From positions 1 through 64,000 of the forward strand of contig CASFSS010000018.1 of the NCBI GenBank assembly GCA_949297445.1: a stretch of DNA of 64,000 bases, given 5' to 3'. Positions 4,892 through 44,968 of this stretch are shown here, one piece after another. This stretch comes from an uncultured bacterium (GTDB lineage: Bacteria > Bacillota_I > Bacilli_A > RFN20 > CAG-826). A program made the position numbers and the translations under genes. Within the stretch, counting starts at the first letter, position 1; each line of letters begins with the position of its first letter. The notes beneath the pieces were generated by a model. The model was not told where the DNA came from. It searched no databases and saw only the letters and a program-made list of their open reading frames with translations.

Positions 4892-7834
4892 CTAATATTC
4901 AAGCGAATCTTTCATTGATAATATACATGAAATAAAATTCGAAACGTTATATTTACGATAAATATTTTCATCAAGTAAAAAGTACTTGTCGCGAAAAAAC
5001 GGATTATCATAATCTAGCATGCCTTGATAAATGTAAACATTGCTCGGATTATAAACATCTATTCTTTTTAAGGCGGGCATATCCGCCACTATCACTTTTT
5101 TAGTGCTATAAAGCAATTCAATCAAATAATTTTTAACAATAAACGGATTATGTACATCTAATAATGATACATATTCGGCGTTTTTAATTAAATAAAAGGC
5201 ATCGCCTCGTCGACGAAGATATTTTGTCCCATCGTAATAATAGAACATTCCATCATTATTCGATAATGTGCTTACTAAATTATTGACGGCAAAATATCCA
5301 AGGTAAGGAACTTCTTTGGCGGCGTTGATTTTCTTTAAAAAATAAATGCTATTTTTACTTTTTAAAGTAAAGTATAAATAAGGCATAGATTTATCCATCG
5401 CCATTTTATCAAGCAAATAACGATTGGATGCAAATTGATCAATCGTTGTTAAATATTTTTTAGATCGATAATATCTTGTCGGCGCTACAAGATAAGCTTT
5501 ATCAAAAATTTTCAAAAAATATTTGCTTCGTCTATTAACGTTCCACTGCAAAGAAATTGACTGCATTAAAGGATGGGTATCTTTTAATAAAGCAATCATT
5601 CGTCCATCGAATATTCGCCCACCAAAAAGCAAAAAATAATCGAAACGATGGTATAAAGCTTGTTCAGCAATCTCTTCGATATAATAATCTCCTTTAAAAG
5701 CAATTAAGCGTGGAGATATTTTATATAAAATTTTTTCTAATTTATTGATTTTCACTTTGCTTGAACAACGCAAAACATAATAACCTCGATTGCGTAGTTC
5801 ACTTATAATTTCTTCAAGGTGATATACATCTTCGCTAGCGGAAATAAGCACTTTCGGTTGATCGGCAATCGCCGCATCTTCCATCGTCTTTTCATAGGGC
5901 ATAAACAAGTCATCTTTTCGAATATTCTTGGCAAAAATCTTAAGATAAAAATTATTAAAAACAGTCAAGAAAGGATATAGTCCAATGATTTTTATTAATG
6001 GTCTAATTGCTAACGTAACAAAAACGACTGTCAAAAAGGCTACAACAGGAATAATTATTGTCATCGATAACGAGGCATTGTCAAATGAAACAAAGGCAAT
6101 AAAAGTAACTAAAAACGAAAGAATAGAAAAGACTAAGTCTACCAAAGTTATTTCAACAAATACTTTATTAAGAGGCACGCCTTTTTTCCGATGACTTTTG
6201 CTTATCGAGGCAAAGAAAAGCGGAACTACTACCAAAAATAGTAACAGCAAAAAAGAAATGATTATAGTAGCCAAAATTGCACAATTATAAGTACCATCAA
6301 TCGTTAAATATATAAATGTGGCAAGTAATATACCTAAAACAATAGTAATGAAAAAATTAAATGTTTTAATGATGGGAAAATTAACATTATAATCAATTTC
6401 TAACGAATATTTTTGTTCATCAAAATATACAATTTCTTTTTGATAATATGGGTGCTGAATTTGATGATATCTAGCCAATAAAGGCACAACTGCAATTACC
6501 ATCACTATCACATATTCAGTGGATGTAACAAACATAACGGTCAATGTCTCCGACCACATGTAGATTGAAATGGCCAAAAAAACAAGAATGGTCCAAATTA
6601 CAATACTTTTATCTTTACTAAATACCTTAACCATTACATATATCAAATACGCAAATAAAATTATCGAAGCAATTACTAAAACGAAACCGCCATTAGCAAA
6701 AATTTGAAGATAACCATTATGCAAATATTGAGTACTAAAAGCAGCCTTACCCGATGATGAATAGTGAAGATTGGCAATTAAATTATTGATTGTTCCTAAG
6801 CCAACACCAAAAAAGAAATTGGCATTTTTAATAATCTCGAAAGCCATTGCCCAAATATACGCTCTAGAATCTAATGTGGATGAACTCGATTCGAAAATGA
6901 TGGAATCATAAAAATATTTAACAATTTTTAATAAACCGTCTTCTAAATAAAAAGAAGCAATCGACAAAGATATAAAAATTAGTACGAAATATATCACAAT
7001 TGATAAGGCAATAATATTTCTAACTTTATGAATTTTAAAAGTCGCAAAAAATCTATATAACCAGTAAATTAAAAATAGAAAAACGCTAATTATTATAGTT
7101 GTTTTACACAAGGTAAATAACATATTTATAAACATGAAAATTGCTACAATGTGCCAAAAAAATGATGGTCGCATTTCATTCAAATAAAAGGCGGCAAAAA
7201 TCATCAAAAGCAAAGCGAAGCCATAATTATTACCGTTTATCAGCAAAGACTTAACCTTTTCGAACTGGTATTTCTCTTGATCGCGAAAAATTTTTAAAAT
7301 TTCGATATACATTTCCCCTTCGGTTGCATAACTATAAATAATTAGCACTAAGCCAACGAGAAGAATGGTATAGAATAAATAATTTAATTGCTTTCGATAA
7401 TGAATTTTTTTAGGAAAAACAGCAAAAATAAAATAGGTCACTGCAACCATTACTGCACCTTGCAAAATGTAATAAATTCTATCTTCCATTGTTAAGGTTA
7501 AATAGGTGTAATAATTAACACCATCTAACGAAATGTACTCAAGATAGTTATCAAACGGCAAAGTTAAAATAGCGATTGCATTAAAAATAAAAATCAAAAC
7601 CATGATAATTACAAAAAAGTAATTTGGTCGCAGCCGATTATAACGATGTTCAAAATAAATTGTTAAAAAGAAAATTAAAGAAAAAATAAAAAAAATAATT
7701 GAATACTCTTGAATCGTAAAAGATCGGTCGTACGCTACCGCATCAAAAAAAACCAAATTTTGCATAAAATAGCAAGCAATAACTAACACGAAGTAGATTA
7801 GACTGTTTGTTAATAGTAATCTTTTATTAATCAT
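4892..7834 (-). CDS. O-antigen-ligase/polymerase-like membrane protein fused to a glycosyltransferase-like domain
   Basis: A 980-residue two-part protein. About residues 1-460 are a multi-pass membrane domain with the Wzy_C/O-antigen-ligase pattern (an FTLCKTT helix, then SRAYIWAM...FFGVGLG...LHNGYLQIFANGG, an arginine-rich large-loop signature). More membrane helices lie at about 485-660. Residues about 690-980 are a soluble cytoplasmic Rossmann-like region (KVLISASEDVYHLEEIISEL...) that resembles GT-B/CgeB-like glycosyltransferases only loosely. The protein at 42047-44968 has the same layout and shared segments, so they are paralogues. It presumably polymerises or ligates a glycan. The joining of ligase and transferase-like domains is unusual. 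It is divergent from the VanZ-Ig gene. Confidence 0.75.
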   Translation of the reverse strand: MINKRLLLTNSLIYFVLVIACYFMQNLVFFDAVAYDRSFTIQEYSIIFFIFSLIFFLTIYFEHRYNRLRPNYFFVIIMVLIFIFNAIAILTLPFDNYLEYISLDGVNYYTYLTLTMEDRIYYILQGAVMVAVTYFIFAVFPKKIHYRKQLNYLFYTILLVGLVLIIYSYATEGEMYIEILKIFRDQEKYQFEKVKSLLINGNNYGFALLLMIFAAFYLNEMRPSFFWHIVAIFMFINMLFTLCKTTIIISVFLFLIYWLYRFFATFKIHKVRNIIALSIVIYFVLIFISLSIASFYLEDGLLKIVKYFYDSIIFESSSSTLDSRAYIWAMAFEIIKNANFFFGVGLGTINNLIANLHYSSSGKAAFSTQYLHNGYLQIFANGGFVLVIASIILFAYLIYVMVKVFSKDKSIVIWTILVFLAISIYMWSETLTVMFVTSTEYVIVMVIAVVPLLARYHQIQHPYYQKEIVYFDEQKYSLEIDYNVNFPIIKTFNFFITIVLGILLATFIYLTIDGTYNCAILATIIISFLLLLFLVVVPLFFASISKSHRKKGVPLNKVFVEITLVDLVFSILSFLVTFIAFVSFDNASLSMTIIIPVVAFLTVVFVTLAIRPLIKIIGLYPFLTVFNNFYLKIFAKNIRKDDLFMPYEKTMEDAAIADQPKVLISASEDVYHLEEIISELRNRGYYVLRCSSKVKINKLEKILYKISPRLIAFKGDYYIEEIAEQALYHRFDYFLLFGGRIFDGRMIALLKDTHPLMQSISLQWNVNRRSKYFLKIFDKAYLVAPTRYYRSKKYLTTIDQFASNRYLLDKMAMDKSMPYLYFTLKSKNSIYFLKKINAAKEVPYLGYFAVNNLVSTLSNNDGMFYYYDGTKYLRRRGDAFYLIKNAEYVSLLDVHNPFIVKNYLIELLYSTKKVIVADMPALKRIDVYNPSNVYIYQGMLDYDNPFFRDKYFLLDENIYRKYNVSNFISCILSMKDSLEY

Positions 7835-16383: not shown

Positions 16384-17250
16384 TTATTTTTGTTTTGGCT
16401 CTATTTCCTTCCAAACTTTATGCATATTTGGATCAACGAAATATCGATATTTATCTGTCGAATAGCGACTATCAACCTTTGGTATCATGTAATCTTCTCC
16501 ATAAGAGCTCACTAACATATCGTTATAATCAATAGGAATCGGGAAATATCCTGTAACAAATTTTGCATATCGAACTTCAGCGAATGAACTAACATTAAAT
16601 ATTTTTTTATCAATTGGTCGACTAGAAAACATTTGACGCACTCGGTCATTGCAGCGTTCGCCATACTTTTCAGAATAAAAATCTATTTTTTTATTAATGT
16701 AACGTAAACTCACCGGCAAGAAAACGAATTTTAAACCAATTAAAGCAAGCTTTTTTATAAAAGTTTGGTCTTTAATCAATCTAGTTTTTACATACACAAT
16801 AAAATTGTACTTTTCCATTTTTTTGCGGAGTTTTTCAAATGTTTTTTGATCCGATGGAGTGTAATCTAAAACAAATATGTCAATGTGAACATGGTGGTTG
16901 TATTTTTTAGATAAAAGAAAACTGCTATAAACACCATTGACAATAATGCGAATAAAAGGATGAATGCAATTTTTGTCTTTTTGATAATATTCAGCAGTTA
17001 ATAGACCATTGCTATATTGCTCGATTTCATCAATAAATTCATAAAGTTTATTAAACTCTTCGCGCAAAACAACAGTATCTACGTCATCGTCCCAAGGAAT
17101 AAAACCTTTTTCGCGGATAGCGCCAAGCAAAGTGCCAAAAGCCAAAAAATATTTCACATTATGCTCTTTCATAAAATTGTCAAAAATGATCATAGCTTTG
17201 AACATAATTTGTTGTAATTCTACTAAGGTAATTTCTTCTTTATCCTTCAT
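16384..17250 (-). CDS. LicD-family phosphotransferase
   Basis: LicD proteins transfer a phospho-substituent (phosphocholine in pneumococcus, other phospho-alditols elsewhere) from a CDP-linked donor onto a cell-surface glycan. The 288-residue sequence has the family core AFGTLLGAIREKGFIPWDDDVD, with the metal-binding WDDDVD at 53-58. No licA, licB or licC choline genes are nearby. A cytidylyltransferase fusion lies at 24000-25448 in the same-strand run and could supply the CDP donor. The ribosome site GAGGTT is 11 bases upstream. The transferred group is unknown. Confidence 0.88.
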   Translation of the reverse strand: MKDKEEITLVELQQIMFKAMIIFDNFMKEHNVKYFLAFGTLLGAIREKGFIPWDDDVDTVVLREEFNKLYEFIDEIEQYSNGLLTAEYYQKDKNCIHPFIRIIVNGVYSSFLLSKKYNHHVHIDIFVLDYTPSDQKTFEKLRKKMEKYNFIVYVKTRLIKDQTFIKKLALIGLKFVFLPVSLRYINKKIDFYSEKYGERCNDRVRQMFSSRPIDKKIFNVSSFAEVRYAKFVTGYFPIPIDYNDMLVSSYGEDYMIPKVDSRYSTDKYRYFVDPNMHKVWKEIEPKQK

Positions 17251-17269: not shown

Positions 17270-18517
17270 CTAAATTTGTACTGATTCCTTTTTATAAAAT
17301 GGAATATTATTTGCAAAAGAGATAGCAAAAATTTGCCCATCATTTTCATTAGCAATTCCCATCATGCATGCCAAAATAATGTAATCTATTTTAATAGTAT
17401 AGTTAGAATAGAAAAATTGAATAAGAAATATTGCCATTGCAAACATGAGAAGCAATTTTCGCTCCAATCCTTTTTTGCTTAATACTTTTAAAGCAGGAAC
17501 AAAGATAAACAATTGAAATATAACAACTTCTAAAAAACCATAGTTAAACCATAATTCAATGATGTTGTCATGCGCAAAATGGCCGGAAAAAGAATAGTTG
17601 CCGAAACTAAATACCCCACCATATCCAAAAAATGGTCGTTTCAAAGAAAATTCTATTCCTTCCAAAAACAAAAATAGGCGCGGCTCATACGAACTAACAA
17701 TATCAAGAGAAAAAATGGCGGCAAAAGAATTCAAAAAACGCTCCCTTATATTTTCAAATGGCGGCAAAAATAATATACAAACAAAACATAATATCGCCAC
17801 GACAGAAATTAAAAGAGACCACTTTAATTTTTCGCGACCAAAAAATAAGAAAATTGCCAAAATCACTATAAATAACGATATCAATAAAGCGCTTCTACTA
17901 CCGGTTATAGAAATTAAAATAAAAGCAATCAATGCAAATAAAAGATTCCACAAACGCCTTTTTAAAAGACCGGCATAAATGTAATAACAAAAGAAATATA
18001 AAAAAACATATCCTACGACATTTAAATCGCCAAAATCTGATCCGATGCGTTCACCATTAAGCAATAAAATATCATCGAAATAGTAGGCAATGAAATAAAA
18101 TAAAAAACAAGCACCTGCTAATCCGAATATATGCAATAAAATATCGCGATATTCTTTGTGACGAAAAATTTGATAAAAAATGAAACAAGTCGCGCTTAAA
18201 AAGAAGACTGTTGTATCAAAATATACGACTCCATTAATAAGGCTACTAGCAAATATAATTACATTGAAAACTACGAGGAGAATGAAAAAGTAATCGACAA
18301 CAATTTTTTTATATAAAAACGCCCAAACCAATATTAATACGCCAGCTATAACATATAGAACTGTGTTAATCAAATTCCAAGGATATATGTAATTAAGCGC
18401 CGCCGTTACAAAAAATAAGAAAAACATGCTGACAAAAATCGCCACTTCAATAGTGACTTGTAATTTGGATTTGCCGAATGTAAAAGTGCAATACAAATTT
18501 TTAAGCATTGCTTTCAT
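17270..18517 (-). CDS. Wzy/O-antigen-ligase-like polysaccharide polymerase
   Basis: A 415-residue integral membrane protein with about ten to twelve hydrophobic helices. The ligase/polymerase signature is in the second half: an ITGSRSALL helix, a long loop with RLFLFLEGIEF...FFGYGGVFSFG, and AHDNIIELWFNYGFLE. This matches Wzy_C-type proteins, which join lipid-linked repeat units outside the membrane. It lies with Wzx, LicD and glycosyltransferases, so polymerase is preferred over ligase. Its 5' end overlaps the 3' end of the upstream gene by 17 bases, so they are cotranscribed. Confidence 0.8.
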   Translation of the reverse strand: MKAMLKNLYCTFTFGKSKLQVTIEVAIFVSMFFLFFVTAALNYIYPWNLINTVLYVIAGVLILVWAFLYKKIVVDYFFILLVVFNVIIFASSLINGVVYFDTTVFFLSATCFIFYQIFRHKEYRDILLHIFGLAGACFLFYFIAYYFDDILLLNGERIGSDFGDLNVVGYVFLYFFCYYIYAGLLKRRLWNLLFALIAFILISITGSRSALLISLFIVILAIFLFFGREKLKWSLLISVVAILCFVCILFLPPFENIRERFLNSFAAIFSLDIVSSYEPRLFLFLEGIEFSLKRPFFGYGGVFSFGNYSFSGHFAHDNIIELWFNYGFLEVVIFQLFIFVPALKVLSKKGLERKLLLMFAMAIFLIQFFYSNYTIKIDYIILACMMGIANENDGQIFAISFANNIPFYKKESVQI

Positions 18518-20259: not shown

Positions 20260-21354
20260 TTATTTCTTATTTTCCAAAAATAATTTGATATATGCTTCAG
20301 CGGTAAAATCAATTGAATATTTCTTTGAAGAAGTTACGGCATTATCGGCAATGTTTTGATATGAAGAAGGATTGTTGATAATGTCATCGATTAATTTCAC
20401 ATAATTATCAACGCTATCATTTGCCACCAAAAAACCATTTTTACCATCATCGATAATTGTCCGATTACCAACGCAATCGCTTGCCACCATTACACATCCC
20501 GAAGATAAAGCTTCAATAATAGCAATAGACTTCATTTCCCAAACAGAGCATAAAAAAGATATTTTTGCATTGGATAAAATTTTTGGAATTTCACTATTAG
20601 GCAATGAATCCTTTATTAAAACATTTTGGGTCAGATTCTTATCTTTAACTAGTTCTTTGATAGTTTCTTTTAATGGACCTACACCATATAAATAAGCTCG
20701 AAAATTCTCGTTTTTACGCACAATTTTTTCAAAAATTTCAACAGCCAACTTATGGTTTTTTTGTTCGGTAAAACGAGCAAACATGACTAAGTCGGTCGTT
20801 CGTTTTGTTAAAGGAATGGTTGATTCAAAGCGTGAACAATCTATTCCGTTTTCTACTAGCGGAACATAATCCAATCCATAATATTTTTTTACGTTATCAT
20901 CATCAATAATGTTAACCGGAATAGCGTATTTATTTCGAAAAATATATTTCATCAATAAATCCGAAATTTTGCCACCTTCTAAGCCTGGTAAAGTATGAAT
21001 AGTATGAAGCACTGTGATTTTTTTATACAATTGCTTTTTTCTTATTGCTAAAAATGTTGTAATAAGAGCATTATTTTCTGTATGAATAAAACGAACATCA
21101 TTTTTAATAATAAATTCGCGTAGCAATTTAGCGCAATTAATATCGACTCCTCTTTTTTTATGAAAAAAAGACACATTAATGCCATTATTTTTTAATGTAC
21201 TTAAAAACGAATCGTTCGCTTCGTCATATAAAACGGCCACGTGCAAATTTACTTTTTTATTTAACGCCACACTTAAATTGACAGCAAACGTTTCGGCACC
21301 GCCAATTGGTTTTAGTGAGCTAATCACTTCTAATATAGTAATTTTCTTATCCAT
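20260..21354 (-). CDS. GT4-type glycosyltransferase
   Basis: A 364-residue GT-B retaining glycosyltransferase. The N-terminal SLKPIGGAETFAVNLSVAL loop is typical of GT4. The donor-binding half has RFTEQKNHKLAVEIF and the E-x7-E element around AIIEALSSGCVMVASDCVGN. It acts at the cytosolic face on a lipid-linked acceptor; donor and acceptor are unknown. AAGGT lies 10 bases before the ATG. It ends 4 bases before the next gene in the minus-strand run. Confidence 0.88.
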   Translation of the reverse strand: MDKKITILEVISSLKPIGGAETFAVNLSVALNKKVNLHVAVLYDEANDSFLSTLKNNGINVSFFHKKRGVDINCAKLLREFIIKNDVRFIHTENNALITTFLAIRKKQLYKKITVLHTIHTLPGLEGGKISDLLMKYIFRNKYAIPVNIIDDDNVKKYYGLDYVPLVENGIDCSRFESTIPLTKRTTDLVMFARFTEQKNHKLAVEIFEKIVRKNENFRAYLYGVGPLKETIKELVKDKNLTQNVLIKDSLPNSEIPKILSNAKISFLCSVWEMKSIAIIEALSSGCVMVASDCVGNRTIIDDGKNGFLVANDSVDNYVKLIDDIINNPSSYQNIADNAVTSSKKYSIDFTAEAYIKLFLENKK

Positions 21355-21449
21355 TATTTTTTGACCTTGTGAAATAATTATAAATATAAATTAATAATAA
21401 ATGTATCATTTTTATTATTAAAGATAGTTTAATATAAAAAATAATGCGT

Positions 21450-22499
21450 TTAATTAAAATAAATATTGGTTATTAAAAATTCGACAAAAACGTCCTCACT
21501 ATACTTTTTTGCTTCATTAAAAGAAGCAAATCTTTTTTCAGAAAGTTCGTTTTTGTGATTATAAATATATTTTAGTTTAGCGACAAAATCATCATAATTT
21601 CCTTGTTCGAAAAAGAATGAATTTTTTTCGCTCATCAGCACAAAATAACTGGGATATTTTGAACTAAGGGTTGGCACGCCAGCAATAAACATATCAACAA
21701 TAGATCCCGGCGCACATTCTTGTAAAAATTTAGTAGGAAATAGATGCAAATCATACTCGCGAATTTTAAAATATCCTTCTTTACTTCGCGCATTTATAGA
21801 TGTCCCGACAAAATTAATATCTTGTCTATCCTTACTATGTTGCATAATTTCTTCTTTTACTTGCTCAACGCTCTCGCTTTTCCCGAAATCGCCAGAAACA
21901 TCTAAAACAAAACACAATTTATTTGTCTCATCATTAATTTGTTCAATAGCGTGAATCGCATCAAGAACACCTTTTTCCTCAATAATGCGCGAGAAAAATA
22001 AACATTTTAACGGAGAATCGTCATCATATTTTTTTGGTAAAAAAGGAATGTCTAAATTCGGCTTAACGGACGGAAAAATTAAGATGTTAACCTTTTGAGC
22101 ATAAGGACGCATCTGTTCTTCAACAAAAGGCGATTCAACAATTAAATTAGCAATTGTATTGTAATTTTTAAAATTTATTTTTTTGTCTTCAAAACCTATA
22201 TAACCGTTTCCAATTATATAAAATTGGATAGGTATTTTTTTATTGAACAAGCGGATTAAATTCAAGGCAATTGTTCCACCAATTATGCATTTAGAAATAA
22301 ATACATCGTCACATTTTGAAAACAATAAATGCCAAATCATTTTTATAGTTTGAAGATATTTGTTTTTCGTGTAATCAATTATAATTAATTTTCTATTTGC
22401 TTTTTCTAAAGCACTCTTAATGACAACGGATTTATTTCTTTCGCCATCCCACATTTTATTCTTTGATGGCTGCGACGATATAAAAAGGGTTTTATGCAT
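21450..22499 (-). CDS. glycosyltransferase, GT-B fold (GT4-like)
   Basis: A 349-residue protein with a divergent N-terminal half and a recognisable GT4 donor half: LFFSRIIEEKGVLDAIHAI, LHLFPTKFLQECAPGSIVDMFIAGVPTLSS, which contains the acidic-loop region. The N-terminal MHKTLFISSQPS...WDGERNKS is unusual for the family. It is preceded by its own promoter with almost no leader (22508-22534). Substrate unknown. Its product probably adds one sugar of the Wzx-exported repeat unit. Confidence 0.78.
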   Translation of the reverse strand: MHKTLFISSQPSKNKMWDGERNKSVVIKSALEKANRKLIIIDYTKNKYLQTIKMIWHLLFSKCDDVFISKCIIGGTIALNLIRLFNKKIPIQFYIIGNGYIGFEDKKINFKNYNTIANLIVESPFVEEQMRPYAQKVNILIFPSVKPNLDIPFLPKKYDDDSPLKCLFFSRIIEEKGVLDAIHAIEQINDETNKLCFVLDVSGDFGKSESVEQVKEEIMQHSKDRQDINFVGTSINARSKEGYFKIREYDLHLFPTKFLQECAPGSIVDMFIAGVPTLSSKYPSYFVLMSEKNSFFFEQGNYDDFVAKLKYIYNHKNELSEKRFASFNEAKKYSEDVFVEFLITNIYFN

Positions 22500-22560: not shown

Positions 22561-23997
22561 TTAATTATCAACACGCATTAATTTTTTGAAATCTTTGGGA
22601 TGTAAACCAATGACGAAGTTCAAACAAATTAAAGCTACACCCACTATCGCTGAAATCGAAAACCAGAGCCAGTAATTTTGAATATATTGCAAAAAGAAGA
22701 TTGCAGCAAAATTAACCGCAAACACAACAAACATTCCTAAAAATGTTTTGAAATTTAAAGGCATTCGCTTAAAAATAACCCAAACTTCAATGTACTTCAC
22801 TATATTAACAATTGTTGTTGATAATAAAAGAGCAACGCAAAGACCATAGACAACATCATATGAAAATGCAAAACAAAAAACAACAAATGTCCCAATATTA
22901 ATTATTCCATTAATGAGTTCTATTTTTTCTTTGCCGGTCATCGACAACATTGTGCCGGTAGGGCCAGAGAGTTCTGACATTGCGTGCCGTAAGGCCAAAA
23001 TGACAATAATCATTGGATAAAGCGTGTATGATTCGCCAAAAAACAGCAAAAAATTCTCACCTTGTGTGAAAAGAAAAATGTAGAAGGGAATACAAACATA
23101 CAAGCAAACTCTTGTGCTCATTCGATAAACATCAATAAGTCCGTCGAGATTATTTTCACGCTTTAATTTTGCAAAAACAGGTTGAATCAACTTTGTAACG
23201 ACACCAGTAATTACAGTCAAAAGATTTAAAATTGTCAATGATATGGAAATAATGCCTAACACAGATGAATCATTAAAAAAAGCACCTTGAAAAACTTTGG
23301 TTAATTCTGTTGTTAAAGAATAAGTAATAGTTACGCCAAAGAAAAAAGTAATACTAATGTATTCTTTCTTGGTCAATGTAAAAGAAAACCTTTTAAAATA
23401 CCGCTTAATTAAATAAACGGCAATTAGACCATAGACAAGTAAATAATAAGCTAAATAATTGTCGCTAAATTGTTGTAAAGTTCCCATCCATAAGAAAACA
23501 ATCGTCAACAAAAAAATAACAAATTTCGGAATAATATTTTCAATAATAATGGAATCGTAATATTTTCCAACACCTTGAAAATATGATGATCCCAACGTGT
23601 TTATGGCCATTACCAAAGCAACCAAAATTATAAAAATTGTAGTAGATAAATCACCTTTTATATCAGTTGTATAGTTATATAAAATGTAAAAAAGTATCGG
23701 AGCAACATAGGCAACAATTAGGAAAAAAATAGTAAAAACTTTATTCATTAACTCGCCGTTATGAATAGGATTTTTAGCCTCACGCACAACGAACCAACTC
23801 AAGCCAAAAACGAAGAAAGAAGAAAACGTTGTAGCGATAGAAACCAAGTATTGCAAATCACCAAACACCGCAGAACCTAAATATTTCGCCAAAACGTAAT
23901 TGAATCCAAACCCAAAAGCAGCACTCAATATAGAAAGAATAAACGGCAAAATATTTTTTGCTTTTTTTAATTTTTGCAATTTCGCAGGTGTCTTCAT
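22561..23997 (-). CDS. Wzx-type lipid-linked oligosaccharide flippase
   Basis: A 478-residue integral membrane protein of the MOP/polysaccharide-export superfamily with about 14 predicted helices. The N-terminal FGFGFNYVLAKYLGSAVFGDLQYLVSI resembles the Wzx/RfbX start, and the LSGPTGTMLSMTGKEK loop is family-typical. It would move undecaprenyl-linked repeat units across the membrane for the Wzy-like polymerase at 17270-18517. It starts 2 bases after the AsnB-cytidylyltransferase fusion gene, so they are cotranscribed. Confidence 0.88.
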   Translation of the reverse strand: MKTPAKLQKLKKAKNILPFILSILSAAFGFGFNYVLAKYLGSAVFGDLQYLVSIATTFSSFFVFGLSWFVVREAKNPIHNGELMNKVFTIFFLIVAYVAPILFYILYNYTTDIKGDLSTTIFIILVALVMAINTLGSSYFQGVGKYYDSIIIENIIPKFVIFLLTIVFLWMGTLQQFSDNYLAYYLLVYGLIAVYLIKRYFKRFSFTLTKKEYISITFFFGVTITYSLTTELTKVFQGAFFNDSSVLGIISISLTILNLLTVITGVVTKLIQPVFAKLKRENNLDGLIDVYRMSTRVCLYVCIPFYIFLFTQGENFLLFFGESYTLYPMIIVILALRHAMSELSGPTGTMLSMTGKEKIELINGIINIGTFVVFCFAFSYDVVYGLCVALLLSTTIVNIVKYIEVWVIFKRMPLNFKTFLGMFVVFAVNFAAIFFLQYIQNYWLWFSISAIVGVALICLNFVIGLHPKDFKKLMRVDN

Positions 23998-23999
23998 TT

Positions 24000-25448
24000 T
24001 TACTTATGTTTTATTTCGTTTACTAATTTTGTTGACGATATACGATTTGTATATGGCAAATAAACGACATCAACCCCGATGGTCGCTAAATCTTCTTCAT
24101 ATTTATTCCATTTTTCGGTGCCTTTCCAATCGTCGCCGACGACAATTGCGTTCGCGCCATATTTTTTACATGCTTTAACTTTGTCCATATCTTCTTGAAC
24201 AACTGCTTTCCAAACAAACGGCAAGGCGCGGACAATCCTTATTCTATCTTCAAAACAAATAATAGATTGTTTTCCTTTATAACTAACTAAATCATCGGAT
24301 GTAACGCCAACAACTAATTTGTTGCACATCTTACTAGCGCGTTTAATTACATTAAGATGGCCAATATGAAACATATCGTAAACGCCGGTAGTGTAAATGG
24401 TGTCATATTTATTAAAACATTTATTTTTGTATAAATACAAAAAATGATCAATGGAATATACAATCCATCTTTGCTCATCGGTCGAACAAAGTTCATAAGC
24501 GTTCTCTTTAAACTCAACATTTTTAATTGGACCATATAATTTATTCCAAATTTTTAACGGACGTGGAAGAGGATACTTTCTTGGCACAAATAATTCACCG
24601 ACACGATGTTTAAATAAAGTGCGCAAAAAATATTTTTCTTCTCCGTTACGAATTCTTTCATAATCTAATTCAAATTTAACATTTAAATATTCATAAGGAG
24701 CTAAATAGTTGATATTTGCTAGTTTAAAAGCATTGGAAAAATATTTAATTGTCGATTCGCCATATAGTCCTGATAAAAACCGATTAGTTTCAAAAAAATC
24801 TTTGCCACAATATTCTTTATAATAATCAGCCGACTGCTCAGGATTTTTTAAAACCAAAGAAGGCTCCACAAAGGTAAATCGTTTAATGAATTCTTCATTA
24901 GTCCATTTGCGAGACATTAAATTAAAAAGTCCACCAAACGCACAATCGGCGCCCGAACCAGTTATTAAATTTTCTAATCCAAAATCTAATGCTCTAAGAG
25001 CCATTTTATATAAACCGATTTCAATGGAAGAAAGCGGTTCACCTTTTTGAAGCATTAAATCGTCTTGAAAGTCTAAAACATCTTGGAAAGTGACGGGAAC
25101 TTCTACTAAACGAAGGCCAAATTTTTCAGCATAAATTTTTGCTTGTTTTACCTCGTCGACACCAACTGTTTCAGGATATTTTAAAGTAAAAGCAATCGTT
25201 CCTTTTGGGCAATAAGAAGATAGTAAAGCGGAATCGATACCACCACTTAAACATATACCTGTCTTACTAAAATCAATTTTTGAAAAATATTCTTTCAAAT
25301 ATTTGTCTAAATCTTCTTCACAAGATATGTCAGTCTTTTTTGTTGTATCAATTAATAAATCAATTTTAGAATCAAAGGGCGTTGTGTCGCGCGGTAAATC
25401 TCTATACACCAAAAATGTGGATATACATTTGTTAATCGAATCATTCAT
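24000..25448 (-). CDS. fusion of asparagine-synthetase-like ligase and TagD-like cytidylyltransferase
   Basis: A 482-residue two-enzyme protein. Residues about 1-300 match the synthetase domain of AsnB: an AsnB-like lead-in (TFLVYRDLPRDTTPFD), the PP-loop SGGIDS at 68-73, and TGSGADCAFGG near 160-171. The N-terminal glutaminase domain is absent. Residues 348-482 are a glycerol-3-phosphate cytidylyltransferase-type domain with HIGH-like H361-I-G-H364, VVGDDWKGTEKW, and RISSTKL near 469-475. Both active sites look intact. A strong GAAGGAG (25456-25462) sets the start. With Wzx directly downstream and LicD in the run, I infer synthesis of an amidated or amide-linked CDP-activated substituent for the glycan. 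The substrate is unknown. Confidence 0.85.
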   Translation of the reverse strand: MNDSINKCISTFLVYRDLPRDTTPFDSKIDLLIDTTKKTDISCEEDLDKYLKEYFSKIDFSKTGICLSGGIDSALLSSYCPKGTIAFTLKYPETVGVDEVKQAKIYAEKFGLRLVEVPVTFQDVLDFQDDLMLQKGEPLSSIEIGLYKMALRALDFGLENLITGSGADCAFGGLFNLMSRKWTNEEFIKRFTFVEPSLVLKNPEQSADYYKEYCGKDFFETNRFLSGLYGESTIKYFSNAFKLANINYLAPYEYLNVKFELDYERIRNGEEKYFLRTLFKHRVGELFVPRKYPLPRPLKIWNKLYGPIKNVEFKENAYELCSTDEQRWIVYSIDHFLYLYKNKCFNKYDTIYTTGVYDMFHIGHLNVIKRASKMCNKLVVGVTSDDLVSYKGKQSIICFEDRIRIVRALPFVWKAVVQEDMDKVKACKKYGANAIVVGDDWKGTEKWNKYEEDLATIGVDVVYLPYTNRISSTKLVNEIKHK

Positions 25449-25556: not shown

Positions 25557-26336
25557 TTATCGAACATTTCGATATTTTTTTAAGCCGTAAAATGCCCACC
25601 TAATAACACAAAACCAACTGTAAATAACATTAAGATTTTGTGTTTTTCGATAGACGTAATACATATGTTTGATAAGTTTTAATTTATTTGATGACTTACT
25701 TCCAGCATGAATAATATAAGTCGCTAAAACTTGTTGATTGCCTTTTGCAACATAGCCTTTTTTTAAAATATCGAGCCAAAAAACATAATCTTCAGCTTTT
25801 TTAATGTTTTCGCAAAAATAAACTTCTCCGATGACGCTTTTGTCATACATTGTTGTCAAGCACGATAAAGGATTACCTTTTAATGCCGTCTTATAATCTG
25901 TTGATTTAGGAACAATAAAATCAGTACATGTATGCTCGGCTTTCCTTCGATAAGAAGCAGAAATTAATGGTCCGTTTTCCTCCATAAATTTTATTTGAAA
26001 TTCCAAATAATTATCATCGAGCATATCGTCGGAGTCCAAAAAAGTTATATATTTGCCATTTGCATGTTTGAGACCAATGTTTCTAGCGGCCGCAGTTCCA
26101 CTATTAGTGTCTGTCTTATACACCTTAATGCGTGAATCACAATCTGATAATTCTTTTGCTAACCTATAAGAATCGTCGGTTGAACAATCATCAATGATGA
26201 GCCATTCCCAGTTGGTAAATGTTTGATTTAAAACACTTTCATAAGTTTGTCTTAAGTAATTGGCAGTTTGAAATGAAGGCGTGATGATTGTCACAAGCGG
26301 TTTCAAATTTTCATTATCAACTTTAAGTTTATTCAT
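25557..26336 (-). CDS. GT2-family glycosyltransferase
   Basis: A 259-residue inverting GT-A glycosyltransferase. N-terminal LVTIITPSFQTANYLRQTYESVLNQTF, the nucleotide-binding IIDDCSTDDS, NSGTAAARNIGLKHANGKY and the metal-binding LDSDDM are all present; KKAEDYVFWLDIL carries the probable ED catalytic element. There is a single domain with no membrane helices. It has its own promoter upstream and a terminator downstream, so it is transcribed alone. Sugar specificity is unknown. Confidence 0.9.
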   Translation of the reverse strand: MNKLKVDNENLKPLVTIITPSFQTANYLRQTYESVLNQTFTNWEWLIIDDCSTDDSYRLAKELSDCDSRIKVYKTDTNSGTAAARNIGLKHANGKYITFLDSDDMLDDNYLEFQIKFMEENGPLISASYRRKAEHTCTDFIVPKSTDYKTALKGNPLSCLTTMYDKSVIGEVYFCENIKKAEDYVFWLDILKKGYVAKGNQQVLATYIIHAGSKSSNKLKLIKHMYYVYRKTQNLNVIYSWFCVIRWAFYGLKKYRNVR

Positions 26337-42046: not shown

Positions 42047-44968
42047 TTATGATAATAATTTTTCGATGAATTTTTCTTTGGAATTATTTTCTAAAATAAC
42101 GCCACTATAATCGTCGTAGTTCGAATCCATAAAGAAGTCACCTGCAAAATTGATGTGGTCTTCCTTGAAGAAAATATAAATATTATTGGCCGAATAATAC
42201 TGGAAGGTTTTTGCCAAGGTATTGTTGGTGATAATTTTCTTTTTTAGTAAATAAATATTTACAAAATCGATATTTGAAATATTGTCACTGCTAGAGACAT
42301 CAACAAAATATTTAGCACGAGCAATCGAGCGAAAAACGGTTTCATTAAAGAAAGAAGGTACATAAGTAATTTTATCAGCGTATTTTCCGAGCGTTTTATT
42401 AATCTCTTTTAAGAACTTTTCACGCTTCTTTAACGACAATTTAATAATGATATTTCCTCTAGTGTATTTCGAATAAAAGTCATCTAAAGTTTTCTTTAAA
42501 ATCGGTAAATCGTTCTTCTTACCTGAACATATACAAGTAAAATCGTCGGTCGCTTCAACATCGATGTATTTCAAAATGTCGTCTAAATAATATGAACTGA
42601 GTAAATTAATTTTTTCATTAAAGGAATCTATTTTATAAAGCGAATAGCATTGATCAAAAGATTGACACAAAAACTTTGAATAAGGATATTTGCTCATTTT
42701 ATATGGAATGTAATAAATAAATTTAGCGTCAGATTGGTAATAGCGAAGATCATTTATCATGTCGATAGTAATCCCTCGACCCATCGTCACAATAATATAA
42801 GAATATTTTTTCAATAATGAATCATATAATATGTCGTCAATAAAAATGCGACTGCTTTCAAGATTGGCGCGCCACGGCATTATATTATTCACTTTATGAA
42901 TAAAATTATTAATTAATTCATCATAAACAACAACATGATAGCCTTTATTTTCTAACGCCGCTCTTAAATTTGAACGATATAGATCGTCGCTAGAAATTAA
43001 TAAAATTTCTTCCCGCCCAATCTCGTAGTCTGCACCATGCGGTGTCTCGTGTTGGCTCATCGGATCGTTTTGAATTGCTAAATAAAGATGATTTAGCCAA
43101 AAATTATTTAATCGATCAATCATATTGTCAGTATTTGTAAAGACTCTAAATCCCGGCACTGCCGTCAATAAATAATAGAAGAGAATGCTAACGACAAAAT
43201 AAGGCAAAACAATCAGCAATATAGTATAGTCAGAAACAAAATAGTAGAAAGCTGCAACAATGCCTGATACTAATAAAAAAGTCGCGACATAAAATACCCA
43301 AACATCGGCAAAATAATACTTATAATCAATCTTATTTTTCTTGGTGGCAAAATTATATATAAATTGGACAAGTAACGGCAAACATAGATAAATAGCGACG
43401 ATTACACCAAAAATACTCCAGATAGTAATTTCGTTAAAACCGTATTGATTAATCAAAAAGAAAGTACTGCCAACAAAAGTAGCGACGATTGGTGTAAATA
43501 CAAAATAAATGGTCTTGGCTAAAGAAAATTTTTCAGCATAAATTTCTAATTTTGGCCTTTCAACTTTTTCTTTTTGCAAAATGATTTCTTTGCGAACTAA
43601 CGGATGATTATATTGATAATATCGTGACAGTAAAGGAACGGTGACAAGAAACGATAAGAAAATTGTATCTGGTGTTTTGGCAAACAATAAAGGCGCGCTT
43701 TCAAAAAGCATATAAACAAGAGACGATGTCAACATCAAAAAAGAAAGAACAACCAAACTTTTTTCTTTTTTAAACATTTTTCCCATCACGTAATACAAAT
43801 ATGTAATGGCAAAAATAAAGACAATGAGCAAAATTACTCCTCCATCGCCCATCAATTGCAAATAACCATTATGCGGGAACGAATTATTTTCGGCTAATGG
43901 ATCTAAGGTTGTATAACTTAACAATAAATTATTAAAAACACCATATCCCGCTCCAAAAAACATATACACAAGGTTGGAATTTAAAATGAGCATCACATCG
44001 CCCCAAATTGCTAGGCGCGAACTAAATGTGTCAAACGCTCCTCCAAAAAGACGAATAATTGTTTTATTTATAAATAAAAAGAAACCGTTCGGAATAAAAA
44101 ACGATAAAACTGTAATGATTGCTAATATCAAAAAAAGTGATGCAACAATCGAGATAGTAATGACATTGCGTTTTTTGTGTTCTTTATAAGTGATAAAAAA
44201 TCTAGCAAGTAAATATAAAATGATAACGATTCCGCCTAATAACAAAGTCGTTTTACACAAAGTAAAAATCATGTTTGTGTATAAGAACAAAGCGATAATA
44301 TACCAGTAAAATTTTGGTCGAACATGATGCATATATAAACTGGCTAAAATAAAGATAAATAGAAGGAAACCATAATTATTACGATGATCAAATAAAGATT
44401 TAACTGTCAAGGCATACGGGTCATCGCTACTTAAGTTAAAAAAGAAATCTAAATAATTACGCCACTCGACGACATAACTATAAATAAGGAAAGCCGCCAA
44501 AAGTAGAAAGCCGAAAATTATAATTAAATCGAATTGCTTTTGGTAAAGAAAATGCCGCGGCAAAACATACATAAATAGGTAAAAAAGAGTAAAGGTTACA
44601 ATTGAAAATAAGAAATAATAAGCTTTTTCATCAAGGGTAAAGGTTAAAACATCATCGCCCCACTCCGTCACGATAATCATCGTATCAGGATTATAAACAA
44701 GGGAAACAAATGAACATATACCTAATACAAAAAGTAGCAAAAGAAATAAAATATTCGTTTTATAGCGATTATATTTTCGATCGACAAAGGAAGCAACGAC
44801 TAATGTCCCAATCAACAAGGTTGTTACTAACGCATATTCATTGGTAGTTAAAGAACGGTACACATTATTTACATCAATAACGGCAGCATTACATAAAAAA
44901 TACGCTGCGACAATCACCGCTATATAAAGAAGAATGTTTGTAATATATAGACGCTTTAAATCTTTCAA
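42047..44968 (-). CDS. second O-antigen-ligase/polymerase-like membrane protein fused to a glycosyltransferase-like domain
   Basis: A 973-residue paralogue of the protein at 4892-7834, sharing layout and landmark segments: FTLCKTTLLL, FSSRLAIWGDVMLIL, FFGAGYGVFNNLLL and PHNGYLQLMGDGG. About 12 helices form the ligase/polymerase part, four more lie at about 500-620, and residues about 670-973 are cytoplasmic. The C-terminal part has a GT-B-like first half (EILLISSDDLYRSNLRAAL) and a second half (TDDFTCICSGKKNDLPILK...) with no clear catalytic motif. Its gene lies immediately after the initiating sugar transferase. Confidence 0.75.
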   Translation of the reverse strand: MKDLKRLYITNILLYIAVIVAAYFLCNAAVIDVNNVYRSLTTNEYALVTTLLIGTLVVASFVDRKYNRYKTNILFLLLLFVLGICSFVSLVYNPDTMIIVTEWGDDVLTFTLDEKAYYFLFSIVTFTLFYLFMYVLPRHFLYQKQFDLIIIFGFLLLAAFLIYSYVVEWRNYLDFFFNLSSDDPYALTVKSLFDHRNNYGFLLFIFILASLYMHHVRPKFYWYIIALFLYTNMIFTLCKTTLLLGGIVIILYLLARFFITYKEHKKRNVITISIVASLFLILAIITVLSFFIPNGFFLFINKTIIRLFGGAFDTFSSRLAIWGDVMLILNSNLVYMFFGAGYGVFNNLLLSYTTLDPLAENNSFPHNGYLQLMGDGGVILLIVFIFAITYLYYVMGKMFKKEKSLVVLSFLMLTSSLVYMLFESAPLLFAKTPDTIFLSFLVTVPLLSRYYQYNHPLVRKEIILQKEKVERPKLEIYAEKFSLAKTIYFVFTPIVATFVGSTFFLINQYGFNEITIWSIFGVIVAIYLCLPLLVQFIYNFATKKNKIDYKYYFADVWVFYVATFLLVSGIVAAFYYFVSDYTILLIVLPYFVVSILFYYLLTAVPGFRVFTNTDNMIDRLNNFWLNHLYLAIQNDPMSQHETPHGADYEIGREEILLISSDDLYRSNLRAALENKGYHVVVYDELINNFIHKVNNIMPWRANLESSRIFIDDILYDSLLKKYSYIIVTMGRGITIDMINDLRYYQSDAKFIYYIPYKMSKYPYSKFLCQSFDQCYSLYKIDSFNEKINLLSSYYLDDILKYIDVEATDDFTCICSGKKNDLPILKKTLDDFYSKYTRGNIIIKLSLKKREKFLKEINKTLGKYADKITYVPSFFNETVFRSIARAKYFVDVSSSDNISNIDFVNIYLLKKKIITNNTLAKTFQYYSANNIYIFFKEDHINFAGDFFMDSNYDDYSGVILENNSKEKFIEKLLS

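Follow-up and report, generated by a model that had tools for sequence, protein, structure and literature searches.

Small groups attached to surface polymers through phosphate or phosphonate influence charge, phage binding and immune recognition. Several described systems contain enzymes related to the ones studied here. CarA and beta-lactam synthetase retain an N-terminal glutaminase-like domain, and the chemistry of the Fom1 pathway proceeds on a substrate tethered to CMP. LicD is present in the gene neighbourhoods of PntC, in a paper whose text makes no mention of an asparagine-synthetase-type ligase (PMC6697681). For the Campylobacter capsule, ethanolamine phosphate and serinol phosphate are made by PLP enzymes (PMC12409886). 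No paper joining asparagine synthase, cytidylyltransferase and LicD was found in a literature search for which most subscription journals were beyond reach, nor was any joining asparagine synthase and phosphonoalanine, and broader searches returned nothing on point; no description of the ligase-cytidylyltransferase pairing thus turned up in the literature searched. Here, we have analyzed a gene encoding both enzymes in a 64,000-nucleotide stretch of DNA from an uncultured bacterium, referred to below as the window.

A ligase fused to a cytidylyltransferase in a glycan gene run

A sequence-only reading had proposed that the gene joins an SGGIDS ligase devoid of glutaminase domain to a cytidylyltransferase with intact HxGH and RISSTK motifs, and the open reading frame, Pfam, the motifs and AlphaFold/Foldseek all agree with it (Table 1). 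Asn_synthase (PF00733) matched residues 62-192 (E 1.7e-15, 58 bits against a cut-off of 21) and CTP_transf_like (PF01467) residues 352-476 (E 4.7e-17, 62.9 bits against a cut-off of 21). Both scores pass the gathering thresholds and, together with the conserved SGGxDS in one half and HIGH and RISSTK in the other, place the two halves in these families. No GATase or glutaminase domain was detected by Pfam in the ORF, where the ligase motif is already reached at residue 68. The protein scored 44.5 bits against a curated cut-off of 267.1 for TIGR01536 (asparagine synthase, glutamine-hydrolysing), and the ORF lacks the N-terminal glutaminase domain with Cys nucleophile that characterizes this family. 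With TIGR01518 (TagD glycerol-3-phosphate cytidylyltransferase), 71.8 bits were obtained against a cut-off of 165.4; judged on sequence, the TagD-like label initially given to the second half holds at the superfamily level only and fails for TagD proper. The AlphaFold model, built with 70 related rows, comprises two confident domains (mean pLDDT 90, pTM 0.79) separated by a short linker, the last helix of the first ending at residue 341 and the first strand of the second starting at 348. The Foldseek matches of this model are the solved structures listed in Table 1. The ligase family also shares a conserved N-terminal stretch (C8, S10, R16), which, by eye, we take to resemble the AsnB linker that follows the glutaminase domain.

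Table 1. Features of the fusion gene and of the neighbouring genes in the window. Residue numbers refer to the fusion protein.
Feature	Position	Strand	Evidence or remark
LicD-family phosphotransferase	16384..17250	-	PF04991, E 3.3e-32; single PF04991 hit of the genome; would use the CDP donor in the proposed pathway
Wzy_C/O-antigen-ligase-type membrane protein	17270..18517	-	Same gene run
Two group-1 glycosyltransferases	20260-21354, 21450-22499	-	Within 20260..22499
Wzx-type oligosaccharide flippase	22561..23997	-	Start codon 2 bp past the stop codon of the fusion gene
Fused ligase-cytidylyltransferase ORF, 482 aa	24000..25448	-	ATG start; ORF and Pfam; orthologous fusions L042, L043; AlphaFold pLDDT 90
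Cytidylyltransferase domain, residues 348-482	24003..24407	-	PF01467; structural match to Fom1 CyTase 5x3d, TagD 1coz
RISSTK motif, residues 469-474	24027..24044	-	Sequence; alignment to TagD GISTTK
HIGH motif, residues 361-364	24357..24368	-	Sequence; alignment to TagD 1coz
Ligase domain, residues 1-341, Asn_synthase type without glutaminase	24426..25448	-	PF00733; structural match to AsnB 1ct9, human ASNS, CarA 1q15
GSGADCAFGG, residues 164-173	24930..24959	-	Aligns with AsnB GEGSDEVFGG; D168 and G173 invariant; usual D/E at 165 is S in the window protein
SGGIDS PP-loop, residues 68-73	25230..25247	-	S68, G70, D72, S73 invariant; G69 in 60/62 ligases
Glycosyltransferase family 2	25557..26336	-	Upstream of the fusion gene, same strand

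The position of the fusion gene directly ahead of a flippase gene and in the same run as LicD was also borne out, LicD and the fusion gene belonging to one uninterrupted minus-strand run. In genome-wide profile counts, the window's genome had a single Asn_synthase domain and a single LicD, and Glyphos_transf was absent, which leaves LicD as the sole candidate from these transferase families. PEP mutase, the mark of Pnt/Fom1 phosphonate tailoring, had 0 matches in this genome, and a phosphonate substrate for the window protein was therefore set aside. No obvious amine-making gene is present in the window's own cluster. Elsewhere in the window, two very large membrane proteins of 980 and 973 aa (4892-7834 and 42047-44968), encoded in one cluster, have similar-looking N-terminal halves; the former, which is the one run against Pfam, matched Wzy_C.

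The possibility that the fusion is an assembly artefact, which would have undone the initial reading, is ruled out by intact orthologous fusions in other genomes (L042 in G055, 76% identity; L043 in G034, 71% identity) and by independent fusions in unrelated lineages. When the three intact genes, from three species, were compared in pairs, dN/dS was about 0.10-0.12 for the ligase half, supporting a working ligase; in the cytidylyltransferase half of the same genes, synonymous sites are saturated and amino-acid identity is 73-80%. Locus L044 (genome G002) carries a copy of the fusion whose ligase part contains a frameshift. In the same-genus genome G001, locus L041 (8801-9626) has a partial LicD, no cytidylyltransferase and, of the ligase, two short pieces containing stops, as if the module had decayed there.

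Conservation of the ligase-cytidylyltransferase pair

Using a ligase-only alignment as query, a genome scan recovered 75 loci from many phyla (76 with the window), whose neighbour content was determined by six-frame searches with profiles derived from clusters of the neighbouring genes. A cytidylyltransferase is present at 74 of the 76 ligase loci, within 150 bp of the ligase in 56 and at 150-1700 bp in 14, and the two genes are on the same strand in 73. LicD or Glyphos_transf was found at 62 of the 76 loci and, where at least 6 kb was available on both flanks, at 42 of 43 loci, in line with the LicD neighbourhood expected from the sequence-only reading. The pairing with LicD proposed there thus stands as a conserved module, with the qualification that its usual form is two separate adjacent genes, the fusion being less frequent, and that the role of LicD is often taken by Glyphos_transf. 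A LicD-family transferase is encoded together with a cytidylyltransferase, as in LicD-dependent phospho-alcohol decoration. The pair occurs in surface-sugar gene clusters of Bacillota, Bacteroidota, Saccharibacteria, Verrucomicrobiota and others, including L. plantarum plasmids, where the gene order is Glyphos_transf, cytidylyltransferase, ligase, flippase. A flippase after the pair is thus shared by the window, L042 and these plasmids, and the sugar genes differ widely from locus to locus. Viral carriage of the pair was considered and rejected, no relative having been detected in IMG/VR scans or by phage tblastn.

Further fusions were found in Bacteroidales (L073, L077, L091, L094), and a Selenomonadaceae genome (L061) has the two domains fused the other way round. 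The fused state corresponds to four changes on the ligase tree. Since the cytidylyltransferase halves of L094 and of L073/L077/L091 group together, these sequences suggest a conservative count of at least three independent fusions, one of them reversed. The ligase half of L094 (5289-6758) clusters with the ligases from loci that carry an amidohydrolase (L030, L105), and these discordant affinities suggest a domain swap within fused genes. The long ligase ORF of L101 was rejected as a fusion, being a wrong-frame extension.

Other gene contents were seen around the ligase. In two Synergistaceae loci (L085, 5009-6034; L090, 7938-9020) it occurs with no cytidylyltransferase and is flanked by a TypA/BipA-type gene and a WG-repeat gene. 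One protein of L087 (965-2869) combines a 60KD_IMP (YidC-type) domain with Glyphos_transf and has relatives in L047 and L070. DUF362 was found at ten loci and is immediately next to the ligase in about ten (L049, L053, L062, L067, L069, L074, L101 and others).

Putative substrates and competing explanations

The position of the AsnB TTIRAS motif is occupied by HSIExQ in the ligase family, LSAEIQ in CarA and SSIEIG in the window protein, E143 being kept in 61 of 62 ligases and Q145 in 60 of 62. At the AsnB arginine position (chain residue 324), E is found in 61/62. The SxExQ signature is therefore common to the ligase family and CarA, but the window's clade has G in place of the Q, together with changes of H140 to S, D/E165 to S, D175 to F and R310 to N, and keeps E143. 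The PP-loop, D168, K272, K291, R296 and R16 are intact in the window protein. As several family-conserved residues are replaced, the substrate of this clade may differ from that of the rest of the family, and these changes are the main uncertainty in extending the family reading to the window protein.

Accessory genes bear on the activated compound. A HisC/CobD-like PLP enzyme is encoded between the two genes in L102 and L107 and after the ligase in L111, and an Amidohydro_3 gene is present in L030, L103, L105 and L094; the ligases of these seven loci form one supported group of the ligase tree. Fom1-type cytidylyltransferase-PEP mutase fusions lie beside the ligase in L046 (4335-5750), L047 (3894-5192), L059 (4630-5925) and L089 (8506-9819), which are candidate phosphonate glycan clusters. 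The first three also contain an aspartate-type aminotransferase, accompanied by methyl-, formyl- or acetyltransferases in L046 and L047 and by an Asp/Glu racemase in L059. These genes favour small amino-phosphates or amino-phosphonates as the putative activated compound. No glutaminase gene was seen among the recurrent Pfam-annotated neighbour clusters, a subset of all neighbours. Since the ligase lacks a glutaminase domain, a phospho-amine would most likely supply the nucleophilic amine, in preference to ammonia; this preference is favoured by the amine-making neighbours (L102, L107, L111; L046, L047, L059) and by the CarA-like SxExQ motif.

The conserved pairing, the independent fusions in both orders and the 42 of 43 loci with LicD or Glyphos_transf link ligase and cytidylyltransferase to one pathway tied to LicD-type transfer. 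As best explanation, we tentatively favour a module whose product is a small phospho-compound carrying an amide and activated as its CDP derivative, from which LicD or a TagF-like enzyme would put the group on a surface glycan. We infer the following steps. The C-terminal domain would convert a small phospho-compound and CTP into CDP-X or CMP-phosphonate and PPi, and the same small molecule would be the target of the N-terminal ligase, which would first make an acyl-adenylate at the expense of ATP and from it an amide, the probable nucleophile being a phospho-amine of the phosphoethanolamine, serinol-phosphate or phosphonoalanine class. Before the glycan is flipped, LicD, or elsewhere a Glyphos_transf enzyme, would transfer the phosphoryl group with its amide onto it. 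Several observations count against this explanation. Close cytidylyltransferases are also found with LicD or Glyphos_transf at loci devoid of the ligase, which is thus not needed for every such donor, and L089 has a TPP decarboxylase alongside PEP mutase, so that phosphonate pathways differ between loci. For the window itself, the lack of an obvious amine-making gene in the cluster and of PEP mutase in the genome weighs on the same side, as do the replaced ligase residues of its clade, among them the Q of the CarA-like motif. It is possible, with less assurance, that a widespread pathway uses the two enzymes to build CDP-activated N-acylated phospho- or phosphono-amines for surface glycans, the ligase perhaps acting on a CMP-tethered substrate.

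Ammonia as nucleophile leads to an unlikely alternative, in which the ligase amidates the carboxylate of phosphoglycerate, phosphoserine or phosphonoalanine with free ammonia and the phosphate is CTP-activated, for example for a glyceramide-phosphate decoration. AsnB homologues amidate cell-wall precursors, and many hosts of the pair are rumen or gut bacteria, living where ammonia is plentiful. Moreover, L046, L047 and L059 have no TPP decarboxylase among the annotated ligase neighbours, so that phosphonoalanine made through PEP mutase and the aminotransferase would retain its carboxylate, and the racemase of L059 fits the same scheme. Glyceramide 2-phosphate does occur in the O-polysaccharide of Providencia alcalifaciens O22 (PMC6222762). 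Against this stand the missing glutaminase domain, the lack of a recurrent glutaminase gene and the glutamate at the AsnB arginine position.

It is improbable that, in the window's clade, the ligase half has an altered catalytic function or is inactive, leaving the cytidylyltransferase to work alone: the clade's residue changes, the broken remnant in G001 and the frameshifted copy in G002 would fit, but the PP-loop and the other residues named above are intact, the fold is confident and dN/dS is about 0.1 across three species. Cj1438C, which couples ethanolamine or serinol phosphate to glucuronic acid through an amide (PMC12409886), offers a precedent for a ligase joining a phospho-amine to a uronic acid of the glycan, with the cytidylyltransferase serving a parallel step. 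We regard this as quite improbable here, as the constant and repeatedly fused partner is a cytidylyltransferase and not a glycosyltransferase, and the sugar genes vary. Ordinary CDP-glycerol synthesis by a TagD-like enzyme bearing a functionally unrelated ligase is very improbable: TagD is among the nearest solved structures, but the TIGR01518 cut-off was missed, the ligase-linked cytidylyltransferases form their own clade apart from true TagD, with a longer loop after GDDW, and L050, L052, L070 and L088 encode a TagD-type enzyme in addition to the ligase-linked one.

Comparison with described enzymes

The conserved pair points to an undescribed chemical decoration of bacterial surface polymers which, if true, would be a new class of surface decoration; the pair carried by L. 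plantarum plasmids provides a culturable system for identifying the predicted group.

The ligase family resembles AsnB (1ct9, PF00733) in its SGGxDS PP-loop, its D..FGG motif and its overall fold, but differs by the absence of the glutaminase domain, the loss of the DE of GEGSDE, the replacement of TTIRAS and its cytidylyltransferase partner. CarA (1q15) and beta-lactam synthetase are Asn_synthase relatives using an amine instead of glutamine-derived ammonia, and the family has SxExQ in common with CarA, although the window's clade has lost its Q; these two enzymes act in beta-lactam making, and their sequence similarity to the ligase family is low. The cytidylyltransferase has the fold, HxGH, GDDW and GIS(T/S)TK of TagD (1coz), from which its longer loop, separate clade and score under the NCBIfam cut-off distinguish it. 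With the Fom1 CyTase domain (5x3d) and PntC it shares the predicted cytidylylation of small phospho(n)ates, and Fom1-type PEP mutase fusions stand beside the ligase in four loci, whereas the window's genome has no PEP mutase. The Campylobacter Cj1436/Cj1437/Cj1438C system is alike in obtaining phospho-amines from PLP enzymes and in building a capsule amide with an ATP-dependent ligase; in the Cj1438C step, however, the acceptor is glucuronic acid in the glycan, the phosphate is later removed and no CDP activation is involved.
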